A stretch of DNA of 64,000 nt from Elusimicrobiota bacterium (GTDB lineage Bacteria > Elusimicrobiota > UBA8919), in the NCBI GenBank assembly GCA_028718185.1, contig JAQUMH010000010.1, positions 1-64,000 of the forward strand, given 5' to 3'. Under the pieces are notes generated by a model. That model did not search any database, was not told the DNA's origin, and worked only from the letters and a program-made list of their open reading frames with translations. This document shows positions 25,631-56,377 of this stretch, in pieces. A program made the position numbers and the translations under genes. How positions within the stretch are numbered: position 1 is the first letter of the stretch; the number at the start of each line of letters is the position of its first letter.

Positions 25631-25651
25631 GAAGTAAAAGGGGGTAAAGAT

Positions 25652-31600: not shown

Positions 31601-34600
31601 AATAGTTCAGCAGTTGGCAATGGTGATATTAATTATATCCAGTTAGTACTGGTAAGTGCAGAGACACCTAATACAGTAGCGACACCGACAATAAGTCCGG
31701 CAGCAGGGACATATTCAGGTTCTGTTAGTGTAACACTTACGTGTGCAACCGGCGGGGCAGAAATAAGATATACAACAAACGGGACAGACCCGACATCATC
31801 ATCAACGTTATATTCCGCACCGTTTACATTAACTGCGAATGCTACAGTAAAAGCCTGTGCGTTCAAAACTGCTATGACCGACAGTTCAATAAATAGTGTG
31901 GCATATATCATAACAAATACTTCAACTCAGCAGGCATATCCCGCAGGAGTAGCATGGTTGGTAGGAACAGGGTCAACAACGATACAAGTAGAAGATTACG
32001 ATATGGTAACAAGTGGTTCCGGTGAAGGTGTAGCATATCATGATACAACACCTGGTCAGGAAGACGCATCGAACACATACAGACCAACAGAGGGAGTGGA
32101 CGTAGAGGCATGCACTGACATAGGTGTGGGATATGATATAGGATACACAATCGTAGGTGAATGGTTAGAATACAGCGTGAATGTTAATCAGAGCGGCAAA
32201 TATAAAATAGTATTAAGAACCGCCCGTGGCACTACAGTTGATGATATGGTACATCTTTCATTCATTCAGAACAGTGCAACATATCTTGTAACACCGTCAG
32301 TAAGCTTACCTGGAACAGGCGGCTGGCAGGTATGGGTAGATACAGAAGTCGCAACTGATGTAACACTTAATGCGGGTAACCAGATAATGAGATTAGAACT
32401 GGATTCCAGCGCTGCGACATATTGCAGTAATTTTAATTACATCAAGTTAATAAGAACAAGTGCAGAGACAATTAATACAGTAGAAACACCGACAATTAGC
32501 CCGAGCGCAGGAACATATTCAAATTCTGTTACAGTAACGTTAGGCTGTGCAACCAGTGGAGCAGAGATAAGATATACGACAAACGGTACAGACCCGACAT
32601 CATCGTCAACGCTATATTCCGCACCGTTTACATTAACTGCGAGTGCAACGGTCAGAGCCCGTGCGTTCAAAGCTGCTATGACCGACAGTTCAGTGAATAG
32701 TGTAGCATATACAGTAACAATTGCTTCACCGCAACAGTCATATGGCAATAATGGTAACCCGTGGCAGATAATAACAGGTACGACAACGATAGAGGTAGAA
32801 AATTTCGACACTGTAACAAGCGGTATTGCTGAAGGCGAGGCGTATCATGATATGGATGCCACTAACAGGGGTGGAGCATACAGGACAACCGATGGTGTAG
32901 ATATAGAGGCAGTCACCGGTGCAAGTAACGGCTACGATATCGGGTATGTAGTTCCCGGCGAATGGTTAGAATACAGTGTAAATGTAAATCAAGATGGCGA
33001 CTACAAAATAATAGTAAGCGCAGGCAATGGAGGTACAACTGCAAGTCCGTTCCATGTTGAATTTGGTCCGCATAATGCAACAAACATTGTAACACCATCA
33101 GTAAGCATACCTAATACAGGCGGATGGACGACCTTTACGGATATAACAGTTGCAAATTCTGTAACACTTGCCGCCGGCAACCAGATAATGAAGTTAGTAA
33201 TGGAAACCGGTAGTGCATCTAATAACGGTAATTTTGATTACATCAAATTAATAAGACAAACTCCTGATACCACACCACCTGTAGTAAGTGCAGTAGTATC
33301 GGCAAATATTACCGGCAGTGGATTGGTAATAACATGGACTACCAATGAGCCGGCAAACAGTAAGATAGAGTATGGATTAACTACAAGTTATGGTAGCGCT
33401 ACCGTTATAACAGATACCACTGGTGTATATACACACAGTGTTACACTAAGTGGTCTTACTGAGAAGACAGCCTATCATTACAGGATGGTGTCCGTAGATA
33501 TGAACGGTAACACGACAATGACCGGAGATTACAGTTTTACAACGACAGCATATGATACTACAGCACCGGTAATAAGTAATGTATCCGCAGGAGTAACACA
33601 AAATAGTGCAGTAATAAAATGGAATACCGATGAGAACTCCGATTCTCAGGTAGGATATGGAACTACGACATTGATGGGTACCGCAACTACCTTAGATGCG
33701 ACATCAACCAGGTTACATAGTGTTTCACTTAGCGGATTACAGAAAGGGAAAACTTATTATTACAAGGTTTATAGCAAAGATGCAACCGGCAATCTTGCTA
33801 CATCATCACAATATAGTTTCAAGACATACAACCTGAAACACAAGATATATACCTATTACTATGATGATGGGACAACGACAACTAAAGTAGGTGCAACACC
33901 GGCTGTGAGTTTGAAGTTCAAGGTACAGGTATATAATGTAGATGAGAACAGTATTGCAACTGACTATACCGGCACTTTAACACTTACAACGAAGAACAGC
34001 AAAGGCACTGAACTGGATACAACAGATTCAACATTAGTTACTGCAGATGCAGGTGAGAAGGAAGTTGCTATCCCGTTCCGTAGTGATATAAATACAGTAG
34101 AGTTAAGCGGTGATACGACAGCGCCGGTAGTGATAGGCTTTAATGATATGTATATAGCAAAATTAGTTGGCTACCAGGGTGGTTCAATACGTGGCGCCAA
34201 CGGGTTAAAGATACTTATACCTACAGGAGTCTTGTCTGCGAACAAATATCTTGCATCAATAAAGACGAGTGCTGCACCGGAAGTAAAGAACACAATGAAA
34301 TATGTTAATACACTAAATCCGATATGTTACGATTTCGGCGAGTTAACATTCAACAATAATGCACCTGTATTGGAAAACCAGACATTCACAAGGGCAGTGA
34401 ACATAACAATACCATATACAGCAGCGGACATAGGGACATTAAACGAGGATGGACTTAGAATCTACTACTGGACAGGAACAGATTGGGAATTAGTATCAGG
34501 AGTCCAGACAGTAGACAAATCAAACAACACAATAACTGCAACAGTCAAACATTTCTCAACATACCGGATATTAGGTAGTTATGTATCTGCCGACATGAGT

Positions 34601-35413: not shown

Positions 35414-38182
35414 ATGTTCAGACAGAAGTTGATAAAAGTTTGTGGTATATTTGCATTAGTTATTTTTACGAGCATTAGTTTTTTGTCAGGTGTTTCTGAC
35501 ACCACACCGCCTGCCAAAATAACGTATTTTCTTACAGCATTTCCAACACCAAAAACCATCACACTAGTATGGCGGTCTGTTGGTGATGATGGAAACACAG
35601 GCACAGCAACAAAATATGATATCAGATATTCACTCTCTCCGATAACAACAGAAGCTGGATGGAATTCAGCTACTAAGGTTAAATGTGATTTAACTCCAAA
35701 TCCTGCAGGTTCTGCAGAATCTTTCATTGTCTTTGGGCTTTCACCTTCAACTAAATACTACTTTGCAATAAAAGCATGTGACAAAGTTCCTAACTGGTCA
35801 CCATTATCTAAATCACCGGGTACCACAACACCTGCTATCACAGACACCACACCACCCGGTAAAATAACAGACCTTACAGCAAGCAACCCGACACCAAAAT
35901 CAATTATGCTTACTTGGACCGCTCCCGGCAACGATGATAATAGTAAAGGTAAGGCTGCAAGATATCTACCACAGGATATTAATCACGAAAACCTAATCCC
36001 GCAATCACAATTACCATATCGTCCGGCTGCAAGATATATACCATATGACATAAGATACTCATTGACACCTATAACAGATGCTAACTGGGATTCTGCTACT
36101 AAAGTTAAAGAAGCACCTGCAGCACAAGAGATATTTAAACAAGAGAAATTTACAATCCCTGGTCTTTCACCTTCAACAAAATATTACTTTGCAATAAAAA
36201 CAGCAGATGAAGTTCCTAACTGGTCAAAAGTATCAAATAGCCCTAATGAAACTACAAAACCTAAGGGCGTAGCTGTTCCATATAAAGGAGTCCCATTTCA
36301 GATACCGGGTAAGATAGAAGCTGAAGATTATGATACTGGAGGGGAAGAAACATCATATCACGATACAACAACCGGTAATGCAGCTAGTGAAGGAGGAAGT
36401 ACTTACCGTACAACAGAAGATGTAGATGTTGAACCTTGTACTGATGCAGATGGCGGTTATAACGTCGGCTGGGCAGTTGCAGGAGAATGGTTAAAATATA
36501 CAACAAATATTTCTAATACAGGAATATATATGATAGAAGTGCGAGTAGCATGTGGTGGTAATGGAGGAACCTTTCATATAGAGTTTGATGATTTAGATAA
36601 GACAGGACCAATGACAGTACCTGACACCGGTGGATGGCAGATTTATCAAACAGTAAGGAAAACAGGAGTTAATTTAATTGCCGGAAAACATATAATGAAG
36701 CTGGCAATGGATACCAATGGTTATCCAGGAGCTACTGGTAATTTTAATTACATCAACATTATACGTGAAGGTAATCTAGGAAAAACTGATACAGTAGCAC
36801 CATCAGCAATAGCCAGCTTGGTGATCGGCAATGTAACAGGTAATTCAGTATTGTTAAGTTGGACATCACCCGGCAATGATGGGAATAGTGGAACAGCAAG
36901 CGTGTATGATATCCGGTATGCAACAATGAAAATAGATAATAGCAACTGGAGTAGTGCAACTCAATGCGTTGGTGAGCCGACACCACAGATATCCGGCAGT
37001 AAACAAACCTACACAGTGCAGCATTTAAGACCTAACACAAAATATTATTTTGCAATTAAGACAGCAGACGAAGTTCCGAACTGGTCTCCATTATCAAATT
37101 CGCCATGTGCAACAACTTCTCTTTCTGTAACAGTGCCAAATGAAAAGATGCTTTTCTATGAAGGCTCAATATTCCCAAATCCCAATCTTGCACCCATAAA
37201 CCCGCCATATCTCATTTCATGGCGAGACGGTCCTGGTGAGCAACCTCATGAAACAGTAAATTATTTTGGTTACAAGTGGGCGACTAAATCACAACACGAT
37301 GAAATGATAGCGAAAGGGAAACTCCCGATACCATTTAGTTACGCTTGCAGAGATGATGCATCACAAAAATATAATCAGTGGTATCTTGACACTGAAGAAA
37401 AGATGTATAACAACTACTTAAAGATTGCACAGGAAGGATATTATGGTATAGAAATAGACGAATATTCTGCATGGGACTCGGATATGCGAGCAAAAAAATC
37501 TATAAACGCACTTAGACATGTGAAACAACAATATCCTAATTTGTTCATGGATGCTGCTTTATATGGTGATGGTATGGATGAAATAATAGCAAGTGGAGCC
37601 GATATATTAAATCTTTATGAATTGGAGATATATATCTATCCTGGATTCAAGGATTACAGAACATATATCAAGAAATGGACTGACTGGATAAAATACTACG
37701 GGCTTGAAGGTAAAACCATAGGTATCCTGGGTGGTGGAGATGACTACAACGGCAATGCACCGGATGTTGACTTATGGATAAAATACTTACGTGCAGAATC
37801 ACCCCAGATGGCAGGTCTCGGATTAGGAATATTTAAACTCTACAATTTAACCACTGCTGAAAGAACAGTATATGACAAGGTGATGGATGATAATTTTTTC
37901 AAAATATCACCGTCCGTTTCTATAACTGCACCGACTAAAAATGCAAAATTAAGCGGAACAGTCAAAATAGCGGTAATCGCTACCAAAAATCCTGAGACAG
38001 GCAACCCTGTTGTCTCTTACCGTTATTTCATAGATACCAAACTTGTTAAAATATCATCAAGTCCTGAGTACTTATGGAACACTACCGGCTATTCAAAAGG
38101 CAAACATATAATAACAGTTCACGCAGTAGCAGACGATTATCTTGCCGGTGTGAGTCAGGTAAATGTAATGTTAAATAAATAG
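35414..38182 (+). CDS. Secreted Fn3-CBM6-Fn3 protein with unrecognised TIM-barrel-like domain (member 1)
   Basis: Product of 922 residues with a signal peptide (MFRQKLIKVCGIFALVIFTS, cut near LSG-VSD). Domains: two Fn3 (about 29-293, each ending in YYFAIK...DEVPNW), CBM6 (298-455), Fn3 (459-570), an unrecognised domain (575-835) and an Ig-like end. The unrecognised domain opens FYEGSIFPNPNLAPINPPY. It contains GYYGIEIDEYSAW with an adjacent acidic pair D682-E683, INALRHVKQQYPNLFMDAA, LYELEIYIYPG and AESPQMAGLGLGIF. That alternation of strands with helices, with acids at strand ends, suggests a TIM barrel, hence possibly a glycosidase. The domain recurs at 40444 and 49715. GGAGG precedes the start. 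It lacks the FlgD-Ig end of the giant proteins. Confidence 0.75.
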   Translation: MFRQKLIKVCGIFALVIFTSISFLSGVSDTTPPAKITYFLTAFPTPKTITLVWRSVGDDGNTGTATKYDIRYSLSPITTEAGWNSATKVKCDLTPNPAGSAESFIVFGLSPSTKYYFAIKACDKVPNWSPLSKSPGTTTPAITDTTPPGKITDLTASNPTPKSIMLTWTAPGNDDNSKGKAARYLPQDINHENLIPQSQLPYRPAARYIPYDIRYSLTPITDANWDSATKVKEAPAAQEIFKQEKFTIPGLSPSTKYYFAIKTADEVPNWSKVSNSPNETTKPKGVAVPYKGVPFQIPGKIEAEDYDTGGEETSYHDTTTGNAASEGGSTYRTTEDVDVEPCTDADGGYNVGWAVAGEWLKYTTNISNTGIYMIEVRVACGGNGGTFHIEFDDLDKTGPMTVPDTGGWQIYQTVRKTGVNLIAGKHIMKLAMDTNGYPGATGNFNYINIIREGNLGKTDTVAPSAIASLVIGNVTGNSVLLSWTSPGNDGNSGTASVYDIRYATMKIDNSNWSSATQCVGEPTPQISGSKQTYTVQHLRPNTKYYFAIKTADEVPNWSPLSNSPCATTSLSVTVPNEKMLFYEGSIFPNPNLAPINPPYLISWRDGPGEQPHETVNYFGYKWATKSQHDEMIAKGKLPIPFSYACRDDASQKYNQWYLDTEEKMYNNYLKIAQEGYYGIEIDEYSAWDSDMRAKKSINALRHVKQQYPNLFMDAALYGDGMDEIIASGADILNLYELEIYIYPGFKDYRTYIKKWTDWIKYYGLEGKTIGILGGGDDYNGNAPDVDLWIKYLRAESPQMAGLGLGIFKLYNLTTAERTVYDKVMDDNFFKISPSVSITAPTKNAKLSGTVKIAVIATKNPETGNPVVSYRYFIDTKLVKISSSPEYLWNTTGYSKGKHIITVHAVADDYLAGVSQVNVMLNK

Positions 38183-38235
38183 TCCAATGTCCCTGCCCGC
38201 CGAAGGTTTAGTGGTGGGCGAAGTCCTTAGTCCAG

Positions 38236-38274
38236 TAGTCGCTTGCCCTTGACAAGCCTAAGAACATAAGAACG
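38236..38274 (+). repeat. CTTGCCC-type palindrome and AAGAAC word
   Basis: TAGTCGCTTGCCC then TTGACAAGCC is a variant hairpin of the extragenic family, followed by TAAGAACATAAGAACG. The TTGACA here belongs to the repeat and is not taken as a promoter. Confidence 0.5.
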
Positions 38275-38299
38275 TTGTTCAATTAACGGGAGGTAAGAC

Positions 38300-40072
38300 A
38301 TGTTATGTTTTAGAAGAATTAGTTTAGTATTAGTTGCTATTTTTAGTATCATTTTTTTAAGTGGTATTTGTATAGGTGCTGAGTTATACGAAACATTTTT
38401 AGAAAATTCTTTAACTAAAGTGCTAAGGGATAAGACGTATCAAGGGAAAGACAAAGCATTAGCAATATATTCCGCTAAAGACGAATATGAGAGTGGTCAG
38501 ATTATAATAATTCCCAAAGGGAAAAACGACTTAAAAAATATAAAGATACAATTTAGTGATTTAACAGGTAAAGATACTCAAGGAAAGGTAATAAAGATAA
38601 GTCCGACCAACTTTGAATATTATCCGGTCGCATGGGCAAAAGGAAGAAATCTTACAGAGGATTTGAATAATAGTCTGATTCAACAGTATTTGCCTCCGCG
38701 AAAACTTACTCTTGAAGATGTTGCAGCATATCAGCCGACCGCTTTTAGACCTGATACAGTATTTGATGCACACCCAGGACAGAATTTTGTAGTTTGGCTC
38801 AGTTTTTATATTCCCAAAGATACAATAGCAGGAACTTATACCGGCACAATATCTGTTATACCGCAGAATGGGAAACGCGAAGATTTAAAAATCAGTTTAA
38901 CAGTCTGGGATTTTGTGTTAATCGAGAAATGTCCGCTATCTTTTCTTTTTTCATCGGATTTAAAGGCAGGAGCTAAATGTACCGGTCTGAGTGAATATGA
39001 ATATGCCAAATACAGTGCTAAACATATGGTAAAACTTCATCGAGGGAATACTTATCTGGACTGGTCTCCGCCAAGTGAAGGTAGTTATGAAAATTATGAT
39101 AAACAGATAGAAGAACTTATGAAACTTGGTATGGACAAATTTTTGATTTTTATAGACCAGCGTTATTTTTATCCTGTAGGACCGCTTCGTATTAAGAACA
39201 ATGATGACCGTATGGGACCGGAACGACAGGCGATACTTAAAAGATTATATAATCATTTGAAAGAGAAAGGCTGGTTGGATAATTTTATATTGATGACCTG
39301 GGACGAACCTGATTTTACCCAGGAAGGTATTCTTGAGAAGTGGCAGAAGTCACAACAAGAAGTAAAAGATGCCGGATTTACTAATTTTGAATGTGATTTT
39401 ACCGGTAGAGCAGAACGTGCACTTGACCAGATGATAGGTTATGCTGGTATATGGTCACCTAACCTTCGTAATTTTGATGGAGGGCCTACGGATGAATTTA
39501 TAAAAGAACGGAAGAAAGCAGGAGATAGGATAGGCTGGTATTGGGGCAGTCCTATACTTGCTCCAACTAAAAGTAATGATTTGACTTTAATAGAACAACG
39601 GACAATAAACTGGCTTGCTTTTAAATACTGTATTGAGTTGTTCGGCGCTTATAATTATGACCTTGTCTGCAGACAAGGCACAGATAGTCCCTGGCGTACC
39701 AATTATGAGCAGGTTACTCCTCAAGGAATTAGTAAGATTTGGAAAAGCAGGGAAGAAGTTACCGATGGAAGTTCATATGTATATCCTAACCCGGATATGG
39801 ATAAGACCAGACCTTTGTTAAGTACAATCAAGGAACATATATTGCGGGATGGCAGAGAAGATTATTGCTACCTGTGTATGTTAGGCAAGTTAATAGAGAA
39901 ACATAAAAAACAGGGAAATACTCAGTTGGCTACCGAAGGACAAAATGCGATTGATAAAAGTTCAGCTTTGGTATTTAAAAGTATAACAGAATGGTCTGTT
40001 AATCCTTCGGATATGTTTCAAGCAAGAAAGATGTTAGCCGAAGCTATTTTGAAACTTTCAAATAAAAAATAA
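38300..40072 (+). CDS. Secreted GH123-like / DUF4091 protein, paralogue 5
   Basis: Product of 590 residues, leader MLCFRRISLVLVAIFSI, cut near IGA-ELY. It is the close partner of paralogue 3: FLENSLTKVLRDK, WLSFYIPKDTIAGTYTG, acidic pair D335-E336 in TWDEPDF, VTPQGI and LRDGREDYCYLCML. GGGAGG stands before the start. Unlike paralogue 3 it is not followed by GH31 but by a 370-base gap with its own promoter-like sequence. The duplicate may have been carried away from its original partner. Confidence 0.82.
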   Translation: MLCFRRISLVLVAIFSIIFLSGICIGAELYETFLENSLTKVLRDKTYQGKDKALAIYSAKDEYESGQIIIIPKGKNDLKNIKIQFSDLTGKDTQGKVIKISPTNFEYYPVAWAKGRNLTEDLNNSLIQQYLPPRKLTLEDVAAYQPTAFRPDTVFDAHPGQNFVVWLSFYIPKDTIAGTYTGTISVIPQNGKREDLKISLTVWDFVLIEKCPLSFLFSSDLKAGAKCTGLSEYEYAKYSAKHMVKLHRGNTYLDWSPPSEGSYENYDKQIEELMKLGMDKFLIFIDQRYFYPVGPLRIKNNDDRMGPERQAILKRLYNHLKEKGWLDNFILMTWDEPDFTQEGILEKWQKSQQEVKDAGFTNFECDFTGRAERALDQMIGYAGIWSPNLRNFDGGPTDEFIKERKKAGDRIGWYWGSPILAPTKSNDLTLIEQRTINWLAFKYCIELFGAYNYDLVCRQGTDSPWRTNYEQVTPQGISKIWKSREEVTDGSSYVYPNPDMDKTRPLLSTIKEHILRDGREDYCYLCMLGKLIEKHKKQGNTQLATEGQNAIDKSSALVFKSITEWSVNPSDMFQARKMLAEAILKLSNKK

Positions 40073-40188
40073 TTTAGTTTTAATTTTATAAAATATCAAC
40101 CTAATGCCCAATTTCTATAGTCGTTGAGTTTCAGACAATAAATATGAATACGATTTAATGATTATGTTTTTTATAAAATATAAATTGC

Positions 40189-40217
40189 TTGACAAAACAG
40201 TAAAAGTGTGTTACATA
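40189..40217 (+). promoter_or_regulatory. Possible promoter upstream of the 1,702-residue protein
   Basis: TTGACA (40189-40194) lies 17 bases before TACATA (40212-40217). The -10 box is weak. The start codon is about 225 bases downstream, past the composite repeat. Confidence 0.4.
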
Positions 40218-40248
40218 TGTAGTAAAGTAAGATAGAAAACAGAAACTA

Positions 40249-40353
40249 CAAGTTAGGCTTGCCAAGAGTCTGGCGACAACTACAAACATAGTAATTAAAT
40301 TGTAGTTTCACGCCCTCGGCGTGATAACATTATAATTCCTATACATCAAGTTA
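40249..40353 (+). repeat. Composite extragenic repeat, copy 1 (about 104 bp)
   Basis: AAGTTAGGCTTGCC, TCTGGCGACAACTAC, AATTAAATTGTAGTTTCACG, CCCTCGGCGTGATAAC and TTCCTATACATCAAGTTA occur in the same order and spacing at 56378-56481 with few differences. It consists of two back-to-back hairpin elements plus the AT-rich tail. Confidence 0.7.
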
Positions 40354-40443
40354 AGATACAACAAATTTCCATATATTTACACATAACACATGGAATTTAT
40401 CCCAGTTCTATCGGGACATTACACAATTTTAAAGAAGGTATCC

Positions 40444-43400
40444 ATGGGTAAACCCATTAAATATTTTTTATCGTTAATAGAAATGGCACTAATCAAACAA
40501 AAAAAATATTTCAATCTATATTTTTTTATTTTTTTTATCATTTTGGTAATGACTGTTAGCAGTACTATAGATGCAGCAGCTGCGACCAAACTCAACTCGA
40601 TTTTTTACGAAGGTGGTACATATCCAAGTCCAAATCTTGCACCGATAAGCTCACCATATTTTATATTTTGGTTCAGGGAAGGTTCGCCGGAAGTTAATAC
40701 GCAACAACCTCATGTAACTGCGGTGGACTGTAATCAGACACCCAGCGAATCAAGATATAATGAAATGATAAATCAAGGGAAAATTGCAATGGCAGAAGTG
40801 CTTCTGTCTAATATTAGTGAGGATGCAGTTTACAATGAATATAAAACCCAGGCAGATAAAGGTTTTAATTTCTCAATCGATGAGCTGGGAAGTGGTTACT
40901 ACTATCAGCAAAATGATCCTGTACGGTATGAGTATGGATACCTCAATTTATGGGCATTTAGATCACTCAGAAAATTAAAACAAGAATATCCCAATCTTTT
41001 TGTACAAGCATGGACTACGTTTAATTTATCTCCACTTGCTGTCGCAGGAATGGATGTTATAGATATATTTTCGCCGGAGCTATATATTAATGGTGCCACT
41101 TCGGCAAACTCATATGTTAACGTTGTTCATAATTATGAAACAACAATAGACACGTATGTTTATGCAGCGACACTTTACGGAGTTGAGGGAAAAACTGTTA
41201 TAGGTTTAGATGCAGGATGTTGGTTCAATAATGTTAACACGTTCGGTACAACGGTGCAAGTCGATGCAAGACTACAATACTTGCGAAGCAAATCTCCTCA
41301 AATAGCAAGCAATGGAATATCACTTTTTTGGATTAGTAATACCATTTGCCCTTGTGGAAATCCATATAGAGCACAGTTTGACGCGTTAATGGATAAGAAC
41401 TTCTACAAGTTATCTCCGACTGCTTTAATAAATACCCCGGCAAACGGAGCAACAGTCAGTGGGACCGTCACAATTAATGTTACCGGTAATGTAAATACTA
41501 CGACAAATAGTCCTGTTACTTCTTATCGTTATTTTGTAGACAACAAGTTAGTTAAGATATCTTCACTTTCAACATATTCCTGGGATACTGCTGGTTATTC
41601 GCCGGGCAATCATATAATAACAGTTCACGCTGTGTCGGCTGATTATATGGGTGGCGCAAAACAGATAACCGTGAACATACCTACAGGATTAAATTTAGCA
41701 TTAAATAAAACAGCAACAGCTTCTTCTAATGTTGCTGACACTGGTAAAGCAGTAGATGGTAATTTAGGTTCTAACTGGACATCATCGAGTAGTGACCCGC
41801 AATGGCTTTGTGTAGATTTAGGTGGAGAATACAATCTTACAGGAGCTATATTGAAGTGGGGAACAAATTATGGTAAAGGTTATCGGATACAAGTATCTAC
41901 TAATAATATAAATTGGCAAAACATATATATAAAAATAAATAATGGTACAGGTGGAACTGAAAATATAATATTAAGTGGAAATGGTAGATATGTCCGTATG
42001 TACGGGACATCAAGAGGGACAACCAATGGATACTCCTTAAATGAGTTTGAGATATATGGAATTGCTCCTGCTCCCGACACAACCTCACCTGCTACAATAA
42101 ACACATTAGCGGCAGGAAATGCAACCAGCAACAGTATAGTTCTGGGTTGGACATCAGTAGGTGATGATGGAAATTCAGGCACAGCAAACGCATATGATAT
42201 CCGGTATTCAAATGTAAATATAACTGATAGTAATTGGTCAACAACTACACAATGCAGTGGCGAACCAACTCCATTAGTAGCCGGAAGTAATCAGAGTTAT
42301 ACCGTCCAGGGTTTAAGTGCAGGAATAACCTATTATTTTGCGATGAAAGTAAGAGATGAAGTACCAAACTGGTCAGGAATATCCAATGTAGTAAGCAAAG
42401 CAACAAATGCACCTGACACGACAGCACCCTCATCAATAAACACATTAGTGACAGGAGTTGCAACCAGCAACAGTATAGTGTTGAGTTGGACATCAGTAGG
42501 TGATGATGGAAATATTGGTACAGCGAGTGTGTATGATATACGGTATTCAAATGTGAATATAACAGATAGCAACTGGGCAACAGCAATACAATGTAGTGGA
42601 GAACCAACACCATCGGTTGCCGGAAGTAATCAGAGTTATACTGTCCAGGGCTTAAGTGCAGGAATAACCTATTATTTTGGTATGAAAGTAGGTGATGAAA
42701 TACCTAACTGGTCAGGAATATCCAATATAGTAAATGGACAGACAAATAATCAAGGTAACCTCGCAATAGGAAAAACAGCAACAGCATCATCACTGGAAGG
42801 TACGGCAGGCAGAGACGAATCAGCCGCAATAGATGGTAATCAAGCAACCCGGTGGGCGTCAGATGTAGGAGACCCGCAGTGGATAAAAATAGATTTAGTT
42901 GAGACATATAATATAAATCAAGTCATATTAAGATGGGAAGACGCATATGGAAAGGATTACCAGCTCCAAGTATCAAGTAACAATATAAACTGGACAACAA
43001 TATATACAAAGACAGGAGGGACCGGTGGAGTAGAAACTCTCAGTGGTCTTAACGGTAGTGGCAGGTATATCAGGATGTATGGAACGGCTCGAGGAACAAT
43101 TTACGGATATTCGTTATGGGAGTTTGAAGTATATGGGACACCTGTGACAACACCTACAAAGAGTATAACAATAACCTACCCGAATGGCGGTGAAAATTTA
43201 ATAGCCGGCAGTCAACAAACAGTAACATGGACAAGTGTAGGAATAACAGGGAATGTAACGATACAAATATCCGTAGATGGTGGAACGAACTGGAGTACAC
43301 TTGCTACAAACATAGCGGATGACGGCAGTGAAGTCGTAACTCTGCCAAACAGTGCAAGTAGTAGTTGCTTAATAAGAATTGTAGAAATAATCGGAGGAAC

Positions 43401-45552
43401 AACTGACAGTTCAAATACTAATTTTGCAATAACAGTAACAGGTCAGATGTCATTTGGTAATAATGGTAACCCATGGCTGATAGGAACAGGTACAACAACA
43501 ATAGAGGCAGAAAACTATGACACGGGTGGTGAGGCTGTAGCATACCATGATACGACACCAGGCAATAGTGGTAACGCATACAGAACAAATGAGGATGTGG
43601 ATGTGGAGACTTGTATTGATACCGGTGGCGGCTACAATATAGGATTTGCAGTACCAACCGAGTGGTTAGAATACAGTGTAAATATTAATGAAACTGCTGA
43701 GTACAAAATAATAATTAGAGGAGCCATGCAAGGAACAGCAAGTCCCGTACATCTTGAATTTGGAAACCACAATTTAGTCCCGTATGAGACAACACCATCA
43801 GTAGCTATACCCAATACCGGCGGTTGGCAGACATGGCAAGATGTAGAAGTCTCATCCAATACCGCACTTACTGCAGGTAACCAGATAATGAAATTAGTCC
43901 TGGATACAGGAGCAGGAAGTAGCAACGGTAATTTCAATTATATAAAGATAATAAGATTAACTGCTGACACAACGCCACCGGTAGTGAGTGCGCCGACACC
44001 GGGTAACATAAGTGGCAGTGGAATAGTTATAACCTGGACAACAAATGAGCCGGCAAACAGTAAGGTAGAGTATGGTTTAACTACAAGTTATGGCAGCGCA
44101 ACACCGGTAACAGATACTGGTGGAGTATATTCGCATAGTGTTACACTAAGTAATCTTACTGAGAACACAGTCTATCATTACAGGATGGTGTCCGTAGATA
44201 TGAATGGTAACCCGACAACGACCGCTGATTATAGTTTTACAACAACTGCAAATGACACTACTCCGCCAGTGATAAGCAATATATCTGCAGGTGTAACACA
44301 AAACAGTGCCATTATAACATGGAATACCGATGAGGACTCAGATTCGCAAGTAGCGTATGGACTAACATCAGTGCTTGGCAGTACAACCACATTAGATACA
44401 ACCGCAACAAAATTACATAGTGTCTCACTAAACGCGTTACTGAAAGGTAAAACCTATTATTATAAGGTTTTAAGTAAAGATACATCTGGTAACCTTACAA
44501 TATCAACACAAAACAGTTTTAAAACATGTAACATAAAATACAGGATATATACATATTACTATGATGAGGTGACAACACCTGCAAGCCTGAAGTTCAAATT
44601 ACAGGTATATAATTTAGATGAAGGTAGTTTAGCAACCGATTACACAAGTACATTAACCCTTACGACTAAGAACAGTAATAATAGTATTCTGGATACAACA
44701 GATTCAACACTAACTGTATCAGATTCAGGCGAGAAGGATGTTTCAATCCCATTCCGTAGTGATATAACTACAGTGGAGTTAACAGGTGACGTAACAGCGC
44801 CGGTAGTTGTAAATTTCAATGATATGTATACAGCAAAGTTAGTAGGTTACCAGGGCGGAACAATACGGGGAGCCAACGGGTTAAAGATAATAATACCGAC
44901 AGGAGTCTTATCTGCAAACAAATATCTTGCAGCAATAAGGACAAGTATACCTCCTGCAGCAAACAACACAACAAAATATGTTAACACAGTTAATCCGATA
45001 TGTTATGATTTTGGTGAGCTGACATTTGGTGAAAGTGCACCGGTATTGGAAAATCAGGTATTTACAAGAGCAGTAAACATAACAATACCATATACAGCAT
45101 CAGATGTAGGAACATTGAACGAAGCTGGACTTAGAATCTACTATTGGACCGGTACAGATTGGGATTTGGTGACAGGAGTCCAGACAGTAGACAAAGTAAA
45201 CAATACAGTAACCGCAACAGTCAGACATTTCTCAACATATCGTATATTGGGTAGTTATGTTTCTACTGATTTAAACGACATTAAAATATATCCTAACCCA
45301 TATAATCCTGATACAGCAGCGCAAGGTAAGTTAAAAGTAATAAACCTGCCAACAAACAGCGTTATGAAATTATATAGTGTTGATGGTGAATTAATCAGGG
45401 AACTCAAAGAGCTCGACTTTGGTAATCTTGGCTGGCTCGAGTGGGACGGCAAGAACGCCGATGGTGACAAAGTAGCCAGAGCAGTATATATTTACCAGAT
45501 AGAAGATACTGCCGGAGGTAAGAAAACAGGCAAGATTGGACTAGTGAAATAA
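40444..45552 (+). CDS. Giant secreted protein: TIM-barrel-like domain (member 2), F5/8C, Fn3, CBM6, FlgD-Ig end
   Basis: Product of 1,702 residues. The start follows AAGAAGG; a hydrophobic stretch (FNLYFFIFFIILVMTVSS) at about 23-40 is the signal. Domains: the unrecognised barrel-like domain (50-325; FSIDELGSGY with D146-E147), Ig-like (326-415), F5/8 type C (416-540), two near-identical Fn3 (about 543-765), F5/8 type C (768-898), KRE9-like sandwich (906-998), CBM6 (1001-1174), two Fn3 (1176-1362), the conserved pre-terminal module, and the FlgD-Ig end with IYPNPYNPDT. The barrel is N-terminal here, whereas it is C-terminal in its relatives, which supports an independent catalytic or binding unit. 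The last 500 residues closely match the products at 25652 and 45671. Confidence 0.82.
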   Translation: MGKPIKYFLSLIEMALIKQKKYFNLYFFIFFIILVMTVSSTIDAAAATKLNSIFYEGGTYPSPNLAPISSPYFIFWFREGSPEVNTQQPHVTAVDCNQTPSESRYNEMINQGKIAMAEVLLSNISEDAVYNEYKTQADKGFNFSIDELGSGYYYQQNDPVRYEYGYLNLWAFRSLRKLKQEYPNLFVQAWTTFNLSPLAVAGMDVIDIFSPELYINGATSANSYVNVVHNYETTIDTYVYAATLYGVEGKTVIGLDAGCWFNNVNTFGTTVQVDARLQYLRSKSPQIASNGISLFWISNTICPCGNPYRAQFDALMDKNFYKLSPTALINTPANGATVSGTVTINVTGNVNTTTNSPVTSYRYFVDNKLVKISSLSTYSWDTAGYSPGNHIITVHAVSADYMGGAKQITVNIPTGLNLALNKTATASSNVADTGKAVDGNLGSNWTSSSSDPQWLCVDLGGEYNLTGAILKWGTNYGKGYRIQVSTNNINWQNIYIKINNGTGGTENIILSGNGRYVRMYGTSRGTTNGYSLNEFEIYGIAPAPDTTSPATINTLAAGNATSNSIVLGWTSVGDDGNSGTANAYDIRYSNVNITDSNWSTTTQCSGEPTPLVAGSNQSYTVQGLSAGITYYFAMKVRDEVPNWSGISNVVSKATNAPDTTAPSSINTLVTGVATSNSIVLSWTSVGDDGNIGTASVYDIRYSNVNITDSNWATAIQCSGEPTPSVAGSNQSYTVQGLSAGITYYFGMKVGDEIPNWSGISNIVNGQTNNQGNLAIGKTATASSLEGTAGRDESAAIDGNQATRWASDVGDPQWIKIDLVETYNINQVILRWEDAYGKDYQLQVSSNNINWTTIYTKTGGTGGVETLSGLNGSGRYIRMYGTARGTIYGYSLWEFEVYGTPVTTPTKSITITYPNGGENLIAGSQQTVTWTSVGITGNVTIQISVDGGTNWSTLATNIADDGSEVVTLPNSASSSCLIRIVEIIGGTTDSSNTNFAITVTGQMSFGNNGNPWLIGTGTTTIEAENYDTGGEAVAYHDTTPGNSGNAYRTNEDVDVETCIDTGGGYNIGFAVPTEWLEYSVNINETAEYKIIIRGAMQGTASPVHLEFGNHNLVPYETTPSVAIPNTGGWQTWQDVEVSSNTALTAGNQIMKLVLDTGAGSSNGNFNYIKIIRLTADTTPPVVSAPTPGNISGSGIVITWTTNEPANSKVEYGLTTSYGSATPVTDTGGVYSHSVTLSNLTENTVYHYRMVSVDMNGNPTTTADYSFTTTANDTTPPVISNISAGVTQNSAIITWNTDEDSDSQVAYGLTSVLGSTTTLDTTATKLHSVSLNALLKGKTYYYKVLSKDTSGNLTISTQNSFKTCNIKYRIYTYYYDEVTTPASLKFKLQVYNLDEGSLATDYTSTLTLTTKNSNNSILDTTDSTLTVSDSGEKDVSIPFRSDITTVELTGDVTAPVVVNFNDMYTAKLVGYQGGTIRGANGLKIIIPTGVLSANKYLAAIRTSIPPAANNTTKYVNTVNPICYDFGELTFGESAPVLENQVFTRAVNITIPYTASDVGTLNEAGLRIYYWTGTDWDLVTGVQTVDKVNNTVTATVRHFSTYRILGSYVSTDLNDIKIYPNPYNPDTAAQGKLKVINLPTNSVMKLYSVDGELIRELKELDFGNLGWLEWDGKNADGDKVARAVYIYQIEDTAGGKKTGKIGLVK

Positions 45553-45559
45553 GATAAGC

Positions 45560-45636
45560 GTTATAGAGTTCGTAGGGTCATAGAGTTATAGGGTCTACGA
45601 CTCTACAAACTCTATGAACTCTAAAACTCTATAACA
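45560..45636 (+). repeat. TATAGAGTT word-repeat, inverted-repeat form
   Basis: GTTATAGAGTTCGTAGGG at the left and AACTCTAAAACTCTATAAC at the right pair as arms of one long hairpin, with TATAGAG words between. It follows the stop codon by 8 bases and may act as a terminator although no T-run is present. Confidence 0.6.
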
Positions 45637-45670
45637 GACATCACTCATAACACATTTTATTGAAGGAACT

Positions 45671-48600
45671 ATGAAAATAAAAAGAATGATGTTATTATTT
45701 ATTATTAGTTTTCTTTTTATTGGACAGATGGTTTATGCTGCGGCCCAATTAAAAGGTAGCTGGATTAATTTTGGAGATTATGATAGCATCAAAAGAATAA
45801 TCAGCGGATTGTTCCCACTGTATGGATGTAATATTGCAATCGTCAGAGTATGGGATCAATATGATTATGTAGGATATCCTATTCACGGTACTTGGTATAA
45901 CGCAGCCAAAGCGCTGGAACTTGGAAATTTAGGTAGAGCAAATGGTATAAAAGTTATTCCTGAGGTGCAGTTTTTTGGTCACCAGGCGTCTAGAGTAGCC
46001 GATGGTGATGTTAAAGGAAATTTTTTACTGGCATATCCGCAATATGATGAAAACAGAGGAGGTCAGCCGGTAAATGACTCGCGTAGTTTATGTCCTAATG
46101 CACCCGGTATTGCGGCGATTGTATGCGGCATGGCAGAGGAAATAGCATTAGCTTTTGGGAATCATGCAATTTGTATCGGGTTTGATGAAGTTTATAATAT
46201 TAACGTATGTTCTCTTTGTAAGGCGACCGGTAGAACCAATGGCCAACAATTTGTTTATTGGCTGAACATTATAAATAATTATCTTCAGAGTAAAGGCATA
46301 GAAGTATATATGTATGGTGATATGTTAATACCTGGTACAGTCGGACTGCCCTATGACCAGCAGTTTTATCCGACTACACATTGGACGGCATCTCCGGATG
46401 ATACGTGGCAGCACATAGATGAAATAGAACACAAAGAAAATATAACTATTAACGATTGGCATTATGATGATTTGGCTTCTTATCCGTCCATCCCATATTT
46501 TGGAAAGAAAGGTTTTAAGGTAAACCTAAGCCCGGGTTATGATGGGGGTGGTACGCCATCTTTTGTTAATTTTGCATTGAATTCTAAAGGACCGAAATAT
46601 TATAATACAGCAGGTATAGTTTTTTGGGGCATGAATCCATCCGACGTCAATTATCTTTTAGATGGCACAGGGGCAGCTTCAGGATTCGCTTTAGCTTTTA
46701 AGTGGGCAATGAACAATGTGAATGGATATTACAAACCGCTGACAGGTTCTCAACCGGTTATATCTGCAGTAACATCGAATGTAGCTGGTAATTCAGCAAC
46801 GATAACATGGACAACTGATGTTCCTTGTGATTCTCAGGTTCAATATTCACAGGAGCGTAACACTTATAACAATTTAATAACCACTTATACTAATATCACA
46901 ACTCTTGATACAAATTTGGTAACCAGCCACAGCGTCCCGATTACCGGTTTACAATCAGGAAAAACATATCATTTTAATGTAATTACTAAAAATGTAACAG
47001 GTTATGCTGTTTCTCCTGATAATACATTTGGTGCAAGTATAACCGTAACATACCCAAATGGCGGAGAAAATTTATTAATTAACAGTCAACAAACAGTAAC
47101 ATGGGGAAGTGTAGGTGTAGCAGGTAATGTAAAAATAGAATTATCAGTTGATGGAGGAACGACATGGAGTACTCTTGTAGCTAATACAGCAAATGATGGC
47201 AGCGAAGTAGTTACTCTGCCGAACAGTCCCAGTAGTACCTGTTTAATAAGATTGTCAGCAATAAGCGGTGGAACAACCGACAGTTCAGATGCAAACTTTT
47301 CAATAGTAATATCAAATCAGATAACATATGGAAACAATGGAAACCTCTGGCAGATATCGTCAGTTTTATTAAGTGCAACAACAATACAAGCAGAGAACTA
47401 TGACACAGGCGGTGAAGGTGTGGCATACCATGATACAACAGCCGGCAACAGTGGTAATGCCTATAGAATAAGTGAGGATGTAGATATAGAAAATTGTAAT
47501 GATATCGGTGGTGGGTATGATGTAGGGTGGACAAAAGCAGGAGAGTGGCTGGAATACAGTATAAATGTAAATGAGGGTGGCGAATACCAAATAATACTAA
47601 GAACAGCCCGCCAACCGGCAGTCAATGATATAGTACACTTTGAATTCACTCAGAACGATGTGGTTTATTTCATAACACCGTCAGTAAGCTTGCCGGCAAC
47701 AGGTGGCTGGGGAATTTGGACAGATACAGAAGTCGTAAACTCGGTAACACTTCTCCCAGGCAACCAGATAATGAAGTTAGTTTTTGACCCCAGTGCGGCG
47801 ACTGATTGCAGTAATGTCAATTACATTAAAATAATAAAACTAACGGCCGATACAACACCACCGGAAGTAAGTGCAATATCAACAACAAGTATAACCGGCA
47901 GTGGAGCGGTAGTAACATGGACAACTAATGAGGCTGCAAACAGTAAAGTTCAATACGGTACAACGCTGCCATATAGCAGTACAACAACATTAGCAAATTT
48001 TGTAACCAGCCACAGTGTCCCTATAACTGGTCTTACCGAAAAGACATTATATCATTACAGGATAATAACAGCAGATATAAGTAATAACCCGACAACAACC
48101 GGTGATTATATTTTTACAACAACTGCAAATGATCCTGATGCACCGGTAATAAGTAATGTTCATGCCGGCGTAACAGTAAATAGTGCAGCAATAACATGGA
48201 CAACCAATGAGCCGTCAGATTCACAGGTAGCATATGGACTCACAACAGCTCTGGGTAGTACAACTACACTAATTACAACACTTGTAACCGACCACAGCGT
48301 CCCAATTAGTAATTTAGAGAAAGGAAAGACATATTATTACACGATTTACAGCCGGGATGCAGCCACAAATCTTGCAACATCCGCACTTTACCAATTTAGT
48401 ACGTATAACTTACAACACAGAATATATACATATTTCTACGATGATTCAACCACACCGGCAAATTTGCAGTTCTTATTGCAGGTGTATAATGATGAGAATA
48501 TTTTAGTAACGGATTACGGAGGAACACTGACCATTAAGACAAAAGATTCCAATGGTGCTGTATTAGATACGATTAATTCAACATTTATTAAAGCAGATTC

Positions 48601-49426
48601 AGGTGAGAAAGATGTTTCAATTCCGTTCAGCAAAAATGTAGATACTATCGAATTAACCGGTGATACCACAACGACGATAGTAATAAATTTTAGCGATCTG
48701 TATATATCTAAGTTAGTTGGCAGTAAGGGCGGAACAATAAAAGGAATAAATGGGATAAAAATAGTCGTACCATCAGGAGTCCTATCAACTAACAAGTATC
48801 TTGCAACAAAAAGGACAAGTGTACCGCCAGTTGTAGGTAATACATTGAAATATGTTAACACAGTTAATCCAATATGTTATGATTTTGGCGAACTAACATT
48901 TAACAATAATGCTCCAACGCTGCAAAACCAGGTATTCACAAGAGCAGTAAACATAACAATACCATATACAGCAGCGGATATAGGAACATTAAACGAGGAT
49001 GGACTTAGAATATATTACTGGACCGGCACAGATTGGGATTTAGTGACAGGAGTCCAGACAGTAGACAAAGTAAACAATACAGTTACTGCAATAGTAAAAC
49101 ACTTTTCAACATACCGAATATTGGGCAGTTATGTATCTGTTGATTTAAGCAAAATTAAAATATATCCTAACCCATTTAATCCTAACACAGCAATTAACGG
49201 TATGTTAAAAGTAATAAACCTGCCAATTAACTGTGTTATGAAATTGTATAGTGTAAATGGTGAATTAATCAGGGAACTCAAAGAGCTCGACTTTGGCAAT
49301 TTAGGCTGGCTCGAGTGGGACGGTAAAAATGCCGATGGTGACAAGGTAGCCAGAGCAGTATATATTTACCAGATAGAAGACACTGCCGGTGGCAGAAAGA
49401 CTGGCAAGATAGGATTAGTCAAATAG
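45671..49426 (+). CDS. Secreted GH20-like hexosaminidase with Fn3, CBM6 and FlgD-Ig end
   Basis: Product of 1,251 residues, signal peptide MKIKRMMLLFIISFLFIG, cut near VYA-AAQ. The N-terminal barrel (20-355) shows GIKVIPEVQFFGH, CIGFDEVYNI with the acidic pair D172-E173, VYMYGDML, and INDWHYDD. This matches the GH20 catalytic pattern (Asp-Glu pair, substrate-assisted hydrolysis of beta-N-acetylhexosaminides), though the usual GGDE is GFDE. A small Cys pair (CSLC) near 180 is unusual. Then Fn3 (361-453), KRE9-like sandwich (455-550), CBM6 (552-725), two Fn3 (727-913), the conserved module and a FlgD-Ig end with IYPNPFNPNT. It is likely exported to the surface like the two other proteins with this end. 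Confidence 0.78.
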   Translation: MKIKRMMLLFIISFLFIGQMVYAAAQLKGSWINFGDYDSIKRIISGLFPLYGCNIAIVRVWDQYDYVGYPIHGTWYNAAKALELGNLGRANGIKVIPEVQFFGHQASRVADGDVKGNFLLAYPQYDENRGGQPVNDSRSLCPNAPGIAAIVCGMAEEIALAFGNHAICIGFDEVYNINVCSLCKATGRTNGQQFVYWLNIINNYLQSKGIEVYMYGDMLIPGTVGLPYDQQFYPTTHWTASPDDTWQHIDEIEHKENITINDWHYDDLASYPSIPYFGKKGFKVNLSPGYDGGGTPSFVNFALNSKGPKYYNTAGIVFWGMNPSDVNYLLDGTGAASGFALAFKWAMNNVNGYYKPLTGSQPVISAVTSNVAGNSATITWTTDVPCDSQVQYSQERNTYNNLITTYTNITTLDTNLVTSHSVPITGLQSGKTYHFNVITKNVTGYAVSPDNTFGASITVTYPNGGENLLINSQQTVTWGSVGVAGNVKIELSVDGGTTWSTLVANTANDGSEVVTLPNSPSSTCLIRLSAISGGTTDSSDANFSIVISNQITYGNNGNLWQISSVLLSATTIQAENYDTGGEGVAYHDTTAGNSGNAYRISEDVDIENCNDIGGGYDVGWTKAGEWLEYSINVNEGGEYQIILRTARQPAVNDIVHFEFTQNDVVYFITPSVSLPATGGWGIWTDTEVVNSVTLLPGNQIMKLVFDPSAATDCSNVNYIKIIKLTADTTPPEVSAISTTSITGSGAVVTWTTNEAANSKVQYGTTLPYSSTTTLANFVTSHSVPITGLTEKTLYHYRIITADISNNPTTTGDYIFTTTANDPDAPVISNVHAGVTVNSAAITWTTNEPSDSQVAYGLTTALGSTTTLITTLVTDHSVPISNLEKGKTYYYTIYSRDAATNLATSALYQFSTYNLQHRIYTYFYDDSTTPANLQFLLQVYNDENILVTDYGGTLTIKTKDSNGAVLDTINSTFIKADSGEKDVSIPFSKNVDTIELTGDTTTTIVINFSDLYISKLVGSKGGTIKGINGIKIVVPSGVLSTNKYLATKRTSVPPVVGNTLKYVNTVNPICYDFGELTFNNNAPTLQNQVFTRAVNITIPYTAADIGTLNEDGLRIYYWTGTDWDLVTGVQTVDKVNNTVTAIVKHFSTYRILGSYVSVDLSKIKIYPNPFNPNTAINGMLKVINLPINCVMKLYSVNGELIRELKELDFGNLGWLEWDGKNADGDKVARAVYIYQIEDTAGGRKTGKIGLVK

Positions 49427-49493
49427 TCCTTGCCCGCCATCGGTTTCTTGCCCGCCAAAGATTCAGTGGAGGGAGTGGTGGGCGATGTCCAAT

Positions 49494-49566
49494 GTCGTAG
49501 TTGCAGAGCTTGCTCTGCTTCTGTGAAAGCTGTTTGATGTTGTAGTGGTTTGCTCTTGGCAAACCC
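49494..49566 (+). repeat. Two palindromic extragenic elements
   Basis: TGTCGTAGTTGCAGAGC then TTGCTCTGCTTC, and 20 bases on TGTAGTGGTTTGCTC then TTGGCAAACCC. The bases before (49427-49493) hold CCCGCCA and AATGTCC words. Confidence 0.55.
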
Positions 49567-49605
49567 AAACAAAGCTGATAATTTCATTACACTCTACATA
49601 CATTC

Positions 49606-49650
49606 AAAAAAGGAATCTTTACCTGACGGTTGATAAAGATTCCTTTTTTT
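49606..49650. terminator. Strong Rho-independent terminator
   Basis: AAAAAAGGAATCTTTA and TAAAGATTCCTTTTTTT form a near-perfect stem of about 16 bp with a T-run, ending the GH20-like transcript. The A-run on the left would let it work in both directions. Confidence 0.8.
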
Positions 49651-49714
49651 ATTGATATTTATTTTTAATTTTATATAATCGTATTACTTTAATTTATTTA
49701 AGGAGTTGTTTACT

Positions 49715-52399
49715 ATGCCTAAAAAATATTTGATAAGATTATGTGTTATGTTTGTTCTTGGTATATTCACGAACGTTTGTATTTTGTCAGGTATTTCCGA
49801 CACAACACCACCTGCCAAAATAACATATTTCCTGACCGCATTCCCGACATCTAAAACCATCACACTTGTATGGCGGTCTGTCGGTGATGATGGCAATTTC
49901 GGAACAGCAACAAAATACGATATCAGGTATTCTCTGTCGCCTATTATCACAGAAGCAGAATGGAATGCTGCTAATAAAGCTAAATGTGATTTAACTCCAA
50001 ATCCTGCAGGTTCTGCGGAATCGTTTATAATTTTTGGTCTTTCACCTTCAACCAAATACTACTTTGCAATTAAAGCAGGTGACAAAGTTCCTAACTGGTC
50101 ACTATTATCAAAATCACCAAGTGCTACGACACTTGCTCTCACAGACATTATACCACCTGTTAAAATAACAAACCTTGCAACAAGTAACCCGGCACCGGAA
50201 TCAATTACTCTTACATGGACTGCTCCCGGCGATAATGGCGTTACAAGTAAAACTAAAATGTGGGAACAATATAAGGTAAGATACTCTACTACAGGTCTGG
50301 TTGCAAAGTATATACCATATGATATAAGATACTCACTTTCACCTATAACAGATGCAAACTGGGATTCAGCAACTAAAATCCAAGATACACCGGCAGCACA
50401 AGAAGTAGCTAATGAAGAGAGATTCACAGTCGTTGGACTTTCACCTTCAACAAAATATTATTTTGCGATAAAGACAGCAGATGAAGTTCCTAACTGGTCT
50501 GTTGTATCAAACAGTCCTAATGGCACTACAAAACCTATGGGTATAAACATTCCATTCAAGGGAGTACCATTTCAGATACCATGCAAGCTAGAAGTAGAAG
50601 ATTTTGATAACGGCGGACAGGATATATCATATTACGATACATCAAAAGGTAACTCAACATATCGCGATATACCCACAGGTGAGCCGGAAAATGCGTACAG
50701 GAAAAAAACAGATGTTGATGTTGAACCAAGTAATGATGCAAGCGGGGGTAATGATGTTGGCTGGGTCATGGCGGGAGAATGGTTAAAATATACAATAAAT
50801 GTTATGACAGCAGGAACATATACATTAGAAGTACGGGTAGCATGTGGTGGTAATGGCGGTAATTTTCACATAGAGTTTGATGACATAGATAAAACCGGAC
50901 AAATGACAGTTCCTAATACCGGCGGGTTTCAGAATTGGCAAACACTAAAGAAGACAGGAGTAAGTTTAAGTGCAGGTAAACACATTATGAAGTTGGTAAT
51001 GGATACTACCGGTACTGAAGCAACCGGTAATTTTGATTATATAAATATAATGAGTGAAGGGCAATTAAAACCGGGTATAACAGTAATAGTTCCTAATGGC
51101 GGAGAAAATTGGGTTGCAGGTAACCGGAAGACAGTAAGTTGGGCAAGTCAAGGTACAGTAGGAAATGTAAATATAGATTTATCAACGGATGGGGGAACAA
51201 ACTGGACAACTGTAGTCCCAAATACAGCAAACGATGGTATTGAGTCTTTTATAGTTCCAAATAAAGCAAGCGGTAATTGTATGATACGCGTACAAGATAT
51301 AGCAGGTATTCCAAGTGATATATCAAATAATAATTTTACAATTTCTCTTACTCCACCAAATGACAAGTTGTTTTTCCATGAAGGAGCAGTATTCCCAAAT
51401 CCCAATCTTGCACCCATAAATCCGCCATATATTATTTCGTGGTTTGCCGGTGATAGCGAGCAGCCTCATGAAACCACGAATTTTTCTTCATTTAAATATG
51501 CTGACAAGTCATGGCACGATAGAATGGTATCCAAAGGAAAACTTCCGATACCATATAGTCCTGCCCAGAGAGATGATGCGTCAAAGGCTGCGGATCCGGA
51601 TTATCTTGACACTGAAGAGAAGATGTATAATAACTATTTAAGGGTTGCAAAGGAAGGATATTATGGTATATCCATTGACGAATGGGTTGCATGGGAAGGT
51701 GACAATCGGGTAAAGGAATCTATTAGTGCGCTAAGACGTGTGAAAAAACAATATCCGGATTTTTTAATGGGTGCTGCTTATTATGGTGATGGTTTTGATG
51801 ATGTAATGGCAAATGCAAGTGATATAATTGATCTTTATGAACCGGAAATATATATCTATCCCGGAGTTAAGGATTACAGAACATATATCAAGAAATGGAC
51901 TGATTGGATAAAATACTATGGACTTGAAGGTAAGAATATAGGTATCTTGAGCGGAGGAGACGAATTTAACGGAAATGCACCTGATATAGACTTATGGATA
52001 AAATACTTTAGAGCAGAATCACCCCAGATGGCTGGTCTTGGATTATTAATATTTAACCTTAACAATTTATCTGTCACAGAATTAGCAGAACACGATAAGG
52101 TAATGGATGATAATTTTTTTAAACTATCGCCGACTGTTTCCATAACTGCACCTGATAAAAACGCAAAATTAAGCGGAACAGTAAAAATTACAGCTATTGC
52201 TACTAAGAATCCTGAGACAGAAAACCCAATTGTATCTTATCGTTATTTCATAGACAACAAACTCGTTAAAATATCATCAACTCCTGAGTACTTATGGAAC
52301 ACTACCGGTTATCCAAAAGGTAATCATATAATAACAGTCCATGCAGTAGCAGATGATTATCTTACCGGTGTAAGCCAGGTAAATGTAACTATAAAATAG
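49715..52399 (+). CDS. Secreted Fn3-CBM6 protein with TIM-barrel-like domain (member 3)
   Basis: Product of 894 residues; the start is ATG at 49715, nine bases after AAGGAG (a TTG at 49706 overlaps that box). Leader MPKKYLIRLCVMFVLGIFTN. It is a paralogue of the protein at 35414 along most of its length: two Fn3, CBM6 (about 290-450), then a KRE9-like sandwich (455-545) where the relative has an Fn3, then the same unrecognised domain (550-810; GYYGISIDEWVAW with D655-E656, LYEPEIYIYPG, AESPQMAGLGLLIF) and the same Ig-like end. The swap of the middle module while both flanks stay alike is direct evidence of domain shuffling. It was probably duplicated together with neighbouring sequence. Confidence 0.75.
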   Translation: MPKKYLIRLCVMFVLGIFTNVCILSGISDTTPPAKITYFLTAFPTSKTITLVWRSVGDDGNFGTATKYDIRYSLSPIITEAEWNAANKAKCDLTPNPAGSAESFIIFGLSPSTKYYFAIKAGDKVPNWSLLSKSPSATTLALTDIIPPVKITNLATSNPAPESITLTWTAPGDNGVTSKTKMWEQYKVRYSTTGLVAKYIPYDIRYSLSPITDANWDSATKIQDTPAAQEVANEERFTVVGLSPSTKYYFAIKTADEVPNWSVVSNSPNGTTKPMGINIPFKGVPFQIPCKLEVEDFDNGGQDISYYDTSKGNSTYRDIPTGEPENAYRKKTDVDVEPSNDASGGNDVGWVMAGEWLKYTINVMTAGTYTLEVRVACGGNGGNFHIEFDDIDKTGQMTVPNTGGFQNWQTLKKTGVSLSAGKHIMKLVMDTTGTEATGNFDYINIMSEGQLKPGITVIVPNGGENWVAGNRKTVSWASQGTVGNVNIDLSTDGGTNWTTVVPNTANDGIESFIVPNKASGNCMIRVQDIAGIPSDISNNNFTISLTPPNDKLFFHEGAVFPNPNLAPINPPYIISWFAGDSEQPHETTNFSSFKYADKSWHDRMVSKGKLPIPYSPAQRDDASKAADPDYLDTEEKMYNNYLRVAKEGYYGISIDEWVAWEGDNRVKESISALRRVKKQYPDFLMGAAYYGDGFDDVMANASDIIDLYEPEIYIYPGVKDYRTYIKKWTDWIKYYGLEGKNIGILSGGDEFNGNAPDIDLWIKYFRAESPQMAGLGLLIFNLNNLSVTELAEHDKVMDDNFFKLSPTVSITAPDKNAKLSGTVKITAIATKNPETENPIVSYRYFIDNKLVKISSTPEYLWNTTGYPKGNHIITVHAVADDYLTGVSQVNVTIK

Positions 52400-56376: not shown

Positions 56377-56377
56377 C

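Follow-up and report, generated by a model that had tools for sequence, protein, structure and literature searches.

A repeated domain of predicted (beta/alpha)8-barrel fold in modular proteins of an Elusimicrobiota bacterium, with a suggestive likeness to the GH114/135/166/191 enzymes

Three genes on the forward strand of the 64,000-nucleotide stretch of Elusimicrobiota DNA analysed here (the window) encode modular proteins that have in common a region of about 257-277 residues, which we call domain X. The first protein, P0001 (35414..38182, from its open reading frame and Pfam), consists of a hydrophobic N-terminus, Fn3 repeats, a CBM6 module, a further Fn3 domain, domain X (residues 577-833; 37142..37912, placed by alignment and AlphaFold2 and predicted to be a (beta/alpha)8 barrel) and, directly after it, a Big_7 Ig domain (37910..38119). 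P0002 (40444..45552) begins with a divergent copy of domain X (residues 49-325; 40588..41418) and its adjoining Big_7 domain (41416..41625), followed by F5/8C, Fn3 and CBM6 modules found by Pfam and a FlgD-like C-terminal tail recognised by inspection. P0003 (49715..52399) carries Fn3 repeats, CBM6, domain X (residues 550-806; 51362..52132) and Big_7 (52130..52339), the flanking modules again being assigned by Pfam. Also on the forward strand, and also identified with Pfam, a GH123-type protein is encoded between the first two X genes (38300..40072), a weak assignment in which the N-terminal models match at their cut-offs and the catalytic model falls just below, and a GH20 protein with Fn3 and CBM6 modules is encoded at 45671..49426. 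Upstream in the window are four further GH123 genes, and genes for GH3, GH4 and GH31 enzymes and a ceramidase-like protein, and the window also encodes a GDSL esterase with CBM6, a NagB-like deaminase, a sugar-kinase-like (BadF-type) ATPase and a SIS protein.

An earlier note on this DNA had proposed that the products of the genes at 35414, 40444 and 49715 share a domain, and this was borne out. The P0001 and P0003 copies are 70% identical and the P0001 and P0002 copies 34% identical, the latter pair matching with an E of 8.6e-29 in a sequence search of the bacterium's own genome, so the likeness is not due to chance. The same search (3.03 Mb, 27 contigs) returned 13 copies of domain X in seven clusters on six contigs, an expansion within one genome that the note had not described; 12 of them are 64-100% identical to P0001 (P0001 itself counted), and P0002 is the divergent thirteenth. 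Invariant columns number 46 in the 13-way alignment and include D107, E108 and E163, i.e. D682, E683 and E738 of P0001, so numbered in the note for the first two. Both the Asp-Glu pair (37457..37462 in P0001; D146-E147, 40879..40884, in P0002; D655-E656, 51677..51682, in P0003) and the later Glu (37625..37627 in P0001; E212, 41077..41079, in P0002; E711, 51845..51847, in P0003) are kept in 13/13 copies. Pairwise dN/dS values of 0.08-0.31, for domain X pairs with dS<1.2, indicate that these proteins are maintained by purifying selection. Among the motifs listed in the note, FYEG (in the form FHEG as well), PNLAPI, EIDEY/SIDEL/SIDEW and AESPQMAGLG/SKSPQIASNG stand as written, and QYPxLF and LYExEIYIYPG proved looser, reading QYPDFL in P0003 and FSPELYINGA in P0002, respectively.

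Domain X stays blank in Pfam, which recognises the flanking Fn3, CBM6, F5/8C and Big_7 domains, and sequence searches of NCBIfam and the PDB gave no real match, in keeping with the note's view that the domain could not be assigned to a family. One of the 13 members matched Dimeth_Pyl at E 0.004, which we take as chance. A search of 340 further genomes from this phylum gave no real match; nine hits there at E 0.002-0.005 were rejected, each spanning one helix only (37-38 residues). Pattern scans of 84,980 GTDB species genomes and of IMG/VR, and tblastn searches of phages and plasmids, did not find the domain; beyond the phylum this negative is less than firm, because pattern scans see only those relatives that keep the chosen peptides. 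Domain X is a real, conserved and amplified family that is missing from the sequence libraries searched.

The architecture of the proteins is equally regular. A Big_7 Ig domain lies immediately C-terminal to domain X in all 13 copies, and ten of the proteins follow the order Fn3 repeats, CBM6, X, Big_7. The placement given in the note, C-terminal in two of the window's proteins and N-terminal in the third, is right, with the refinement that the moving unit is X together with Big_7; the neighbouring CBM6, Fn3 and F5/8C modules it named were likewise seen by Pfam. In P0002 domain X comes first, with CBM6 and F5/8C further on, and the X proteins of loci L023 and L029 are without CBM6, the former having F5/8C and the latter ending in a Por secretion tail. 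No second Pfam-recognised catalytic domain occurs in any X protein, and in most of them X is the sole unexplained folded domain beside binding modules. The hydrophobic N-termini, judged by inspection, suggest export. A type IX-like secretion route is hinted at by a PorV/PorQ family protein at 24520-25470 of the window, by the Por secretion tail on the X protein at L029:8876-11368, and by the FlgD-like tails at the C-termini of P0002, P0005 and P0006. A 3112-residue protein encoded at 25538-34876 shows, by inspection, FG-GAP-like repeats, CBM6-like segments and a FlgD-like tail.

The TIM-barrel fold suggested in the note is supported by structure prediction. With the 13-way alignment, AlphaFold2 modelled the P0001 domain at a pLDDT of 79.7 and a pTM of 0.80, with eight strands in (beta/alpha)8 order (25-29, 40-42, 66-68, 103-110, 136-142, 159-164, 193-198 and 228-232), helices separating most of them, and the first 19 residues (FYEG...PNLAP) poorly modelled. 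When P0002 was placed first in the alignment, the order of elements was largely the same (pLDDT 64.6, pTM 0.70). Domain X is accordingly predicted to fold as a (beta/alpha)8 barrel with acids on strands 4 and 6: in the P0001 model D107-E108 closes strand 4, the usual seat of catalytic acids in barrel glycosidases, and E163 lies on strand 6. This second conserved carboxylate, E738 in P0001, goes beyond the note, and it would form with D682 a classical retaining pair, D682 being the proposed nucleophile and E738 the proposed acid/base.

Foldseek searches of the PDB with the predicted P0001 and P0002 structures returned barrels, the best solved match being the GH166 enzyme PelA (5tcb), which ranked first with both models (E 8e-7 for P0001 and 6e-5 for P0002). 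The GH191 enzyme TM1410 (2aam/9euz) made up most of ranks 2-12 with the P0001 model and stood at rank 6 with the P0002 model, the GH114 enzyme Ega3 was found at rank 43 with the P0001 model, and GH18 enzymes were prominent with the P0002 model. TM-scores were about 0.5, which speaks for a barrel with a family preference and not for a confident family assignment. GH114, GH135, GH166 and GH191 are families of endo-alpha-galactosaminidases; common to all four are the (beta/alpha)8 barrel and a retaining endo mechanism, with Asp as nucleophile and Glu as acid/base (PMC12054363). The published catalytic pairs are Asp156/Glu225 in TmGH191, Asp189/Glu247 in Ega3 and Asp160/Glu223 in PelA (PMC12054363). 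For Sph3 of GH135 the residues are given as Asp166, Glu167 and Glu222 in one source (PMC10485009), at odds with the pair Asp196/Glu222 printed in another (PMC12054363); we use the former numbering, with which FDETP in the solved structure (5c5g) agrees.

For comparison with these enzymes, the predicted strand 4 of domain X reads GYYGIEID(E), and the distance from Asp to the strand-6 Glu is 56 residues in the 12 close copies and 66 in P0002, compared with 56 in Sph3, 58 in Ega3, 63 in PelA and 69 in GH191. PelA likewise has a barrel, with an Asp nucleophile and a Glu acid/base like those proposed for X, but is only ~11-12% identical to domain X and has LFLDTLD where X carries D-E; unlike PelA, moreover, the X proteins appear to be secreted, with binding modules and without a deacetylase domain. 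The GH191 strand 4, GFKGIYLD, resembles GYYGIEID, whereas its Asp-to-Glu spacing of 69 differs from the 56 of X. In GH114, GH191 and GH166 strand 3 is followed by a three-stranded insertion, which in GH191 and GH166 precedes helix 3; a strandless loop of ~17 residues, modelled with moderate confidence, takes this place in the P0001 structure. GH114 (Ega3, PF03537) gives the best profile-profile score, with the catalytic Asp aligned and the same strand-4 motif, but among the sequences gathered here it mostly has DT at the nucleophile where X has DE. That motif, G[YF]x[GN][IVLF]x[ILVF]D, which was picked after the fact, is present in 12/13 X copies and 10/12 GH114-like sequences and is otherwise absent from 56 thousand residues of neighbouring open reading frames. 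GH135 (Sph3, spherulin-4, PF12138) matches the layout predicted for X in its adjacent Asp-Glu on strand 4, its Glu on strand 6 and its spacing of 56, yet X is without the GH135 signatures VPxYxYPG, NPxxGPG and NPWDxLP.

For profile comparisons, GH114-like and GH135 sequences were collected within the phylum and from plasmids, phages and IMG/VR, and the X profile was scored by hhalign (Viterbi) with column-shuffled X profiles as controls. Against GH114 the score was 29.96, reached by 0/200 shuffles (top shuffle 29.6), in an alignment of 62 columns only in which D682 falls at the position of the GH114 nucleophile. The result is suggestive of distant homology, with the reservation that several families were tried and the score is not proof. 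GH135 scored 23.2 (1/100 shuffles), dropping to 17.2 (14/100) with a deeper alignment, and the strand-6 Glu was two residues out of register, pairing with E736. On the same scale the accepted relatives GH135 and GH114 score 38.7 against each other. In the bacterium's own genome PF03537 found nothing above its cut-off, the best hit being one X member at E 0.14, and PF12138 had no match. By the sequence thresholds tested, domain X is therefore not to be filed under GH114 or GH135; membership of GH166 and GH191 was judged by fold only. GH135, despite its attractive D-E pair, was set aside as home family as its profile score was lost with the deeper alignment. GH5 was rejected too, with a marginal score (21.1, 1/100 shuffles) but an alignment out of register, as was GH18, whose strand-4 DxxDxDxE is missing from X (GYYGIEIDE) and which had no match in the genome at E<=1e-8.

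The predicted fold and active-site layout point to GH114/135/166/191, and domain X thus looks like an unassigned lineage of a known kind. The earlier note had seen in the acid pair a possible new glycosidase family: the pair is indeed invariant and closes strand 4 in the model, and what the predicted structure points to is this known superfamily, of which X is suggested to be a member. It is also possible, if rather unlikely, that X is a TIM-barrel glycoside hydrolase of a separate, unnamed family and that its galactosaminidase likeness is generic barrel similarity. The modest TM-scores are compatible with this, as many other TIM barrels, e.g. GH18, GH26, GH5, KDO8P synthase and IMPDH, also match at E<1e-3, X has no usable family-level HMM match, and the GH135 signal is not robust. 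Generic similarity, however, fits less well with PelA coming first from two models, with two carboxylates on the expected strands, or with a GH114 match in active-site register above all shuffles, when GH123 and an AP-endonuclease barrel (13.6, 69/100 shuffles) fail and GH5 is out of register.

GH20 and GH123 enzymes also have an adjacent D-E on strand 4, and since X shares this pair, along with GH123 and GH20 genomic neighbours and an amino-sugar context, it could in principle be a substrate-assisted hexosaminidase in which D-E would act as stabiliser and acid/base and the N-acetyl group of the substrate as nucleophile. We consider this improbable, as the X profile scores at shuffle level against the window's own GH123 paralogues (17.3, 31/100 shuffles), X has no sequence or profile match to GH20 or GH123 catalytic domains, neither of which was retained as home family, and the invariant strand-6 Glu, a carboxylate additional to theirs, would be needless in such a mechanism. 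There is similarly little to commend a catalytically dead barrel for glycan binding or structural spacing, for although a non-catalytic barrel, the rice xylanase inhibitor, is among the Foldseek matches and the X proteins are rich in binding modules, D, E and E stay invariant in 13 copies whose identity to P0001 is 35-76%, dN/dS is low, and each X protein is already equipped with dedicated binding or Fn3/Ig modules and has no further catalytic domain that is recognised.

Genomic surroundings bear on the likely substrate. The genome of about 3 Mb has 15 GH123 catalytic-domain matches, only one of them under the family cut-off, and a GH123 gene is no more than 10.5 kb away from 7/13 X copies, or 4/7 X clusters, for an expected genome fraction of at most 0.073; the binomial P values, 1e-5 by copy and 8e-4 by cluster, are indicative only, because the distance was chosen after the positions had been seen. 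The target that suggests itself is an amino-sugar glycan. A glycosphingolipid is a possible target, allowed by the ceramidase and GH123 genes, that we rank below a GalN/GalNAc polymer. An amino-sugar glycan locus occupies 499-22774 of the window and comprises the four GH123 genes, those for GH3, GH4 and GH31, the NagB-like, BadF-type kinase and SIS proteins, and the neutral-ceramidase-like protein, at 4003-5301. Elsewhere in the window, a metallo-beta-lactamase-fold match was seen in two of three consecutive genes (55534-58945), and the remaining one (57977) looks similar by eye. Beside X genes, two proteins, at L022:9205-11706 and L022:17562-20000 (- strand), combine SBP_bac_1, a solute-binding domain, with the ABC permease domain BPD_transp_1 in one chain. 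Large modular proteins adjoining X copies (L022:972-4205, L028:2269-5535, L026:6994-11391 and L023:1256-5095) have first several hundred residues without a Pfam match, which may be further catalytic domains.

On balance, we lean towards reading domain X as the catalytic part of a retaining endo-glycosidase, a distant new lineage of the GH114/135/166/191 group, with GalNAc/GalN-rich glycans as the probable target; its fold and active-site placement are predicted from models, and its place in that group, its mechanism and its substrate we infer. As a retaining endo-glycosidase, X would be the catalytic barrel of exported modular glycoside hydrolases, its acids placed where strand 4 reaches its C-terminal end and on strand 6. 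D682 would attack the anomeric carbon with E738 as acid/base, giving retaining endo cleavage, and CBM6, Fn3 and F5/8C modules would keep X attached to a glycan that is polymeric or insoluble. The oligosaccharides set free could then pass to the neighbouring GH123, GH20, GH3, GH4 and GH31 enzymes, and on to an amino-sugar catabolic route of NagB-like, sugar-kinase-like and SIS proteins. More tentatively, and with some doubt on our part, X may found a new CAZy family, whose 13 secreted variants would each suit particular linkages or degrees and patterns of acetylation in an exopolysaccharide rich in GalNAc/GalN.

Few enzymes cut the galactosamine-rich polysaccharides of biofilms (Pel, galactosaminogalactan), with two or fewer characterised members per CAZy family among these galactosamine-polymer-cutting enzymes (PMC12054363). 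Domain X is a probable catalytic domain overlooked by sequence libraries and placeable by its predicted fold. If the proposed reading is true, its 13 natural variants on binding modules would offer a ready-made set with which to map specificity, and the bacterium would stand out as one dedicated to consuming galactosamine-rich polymers.
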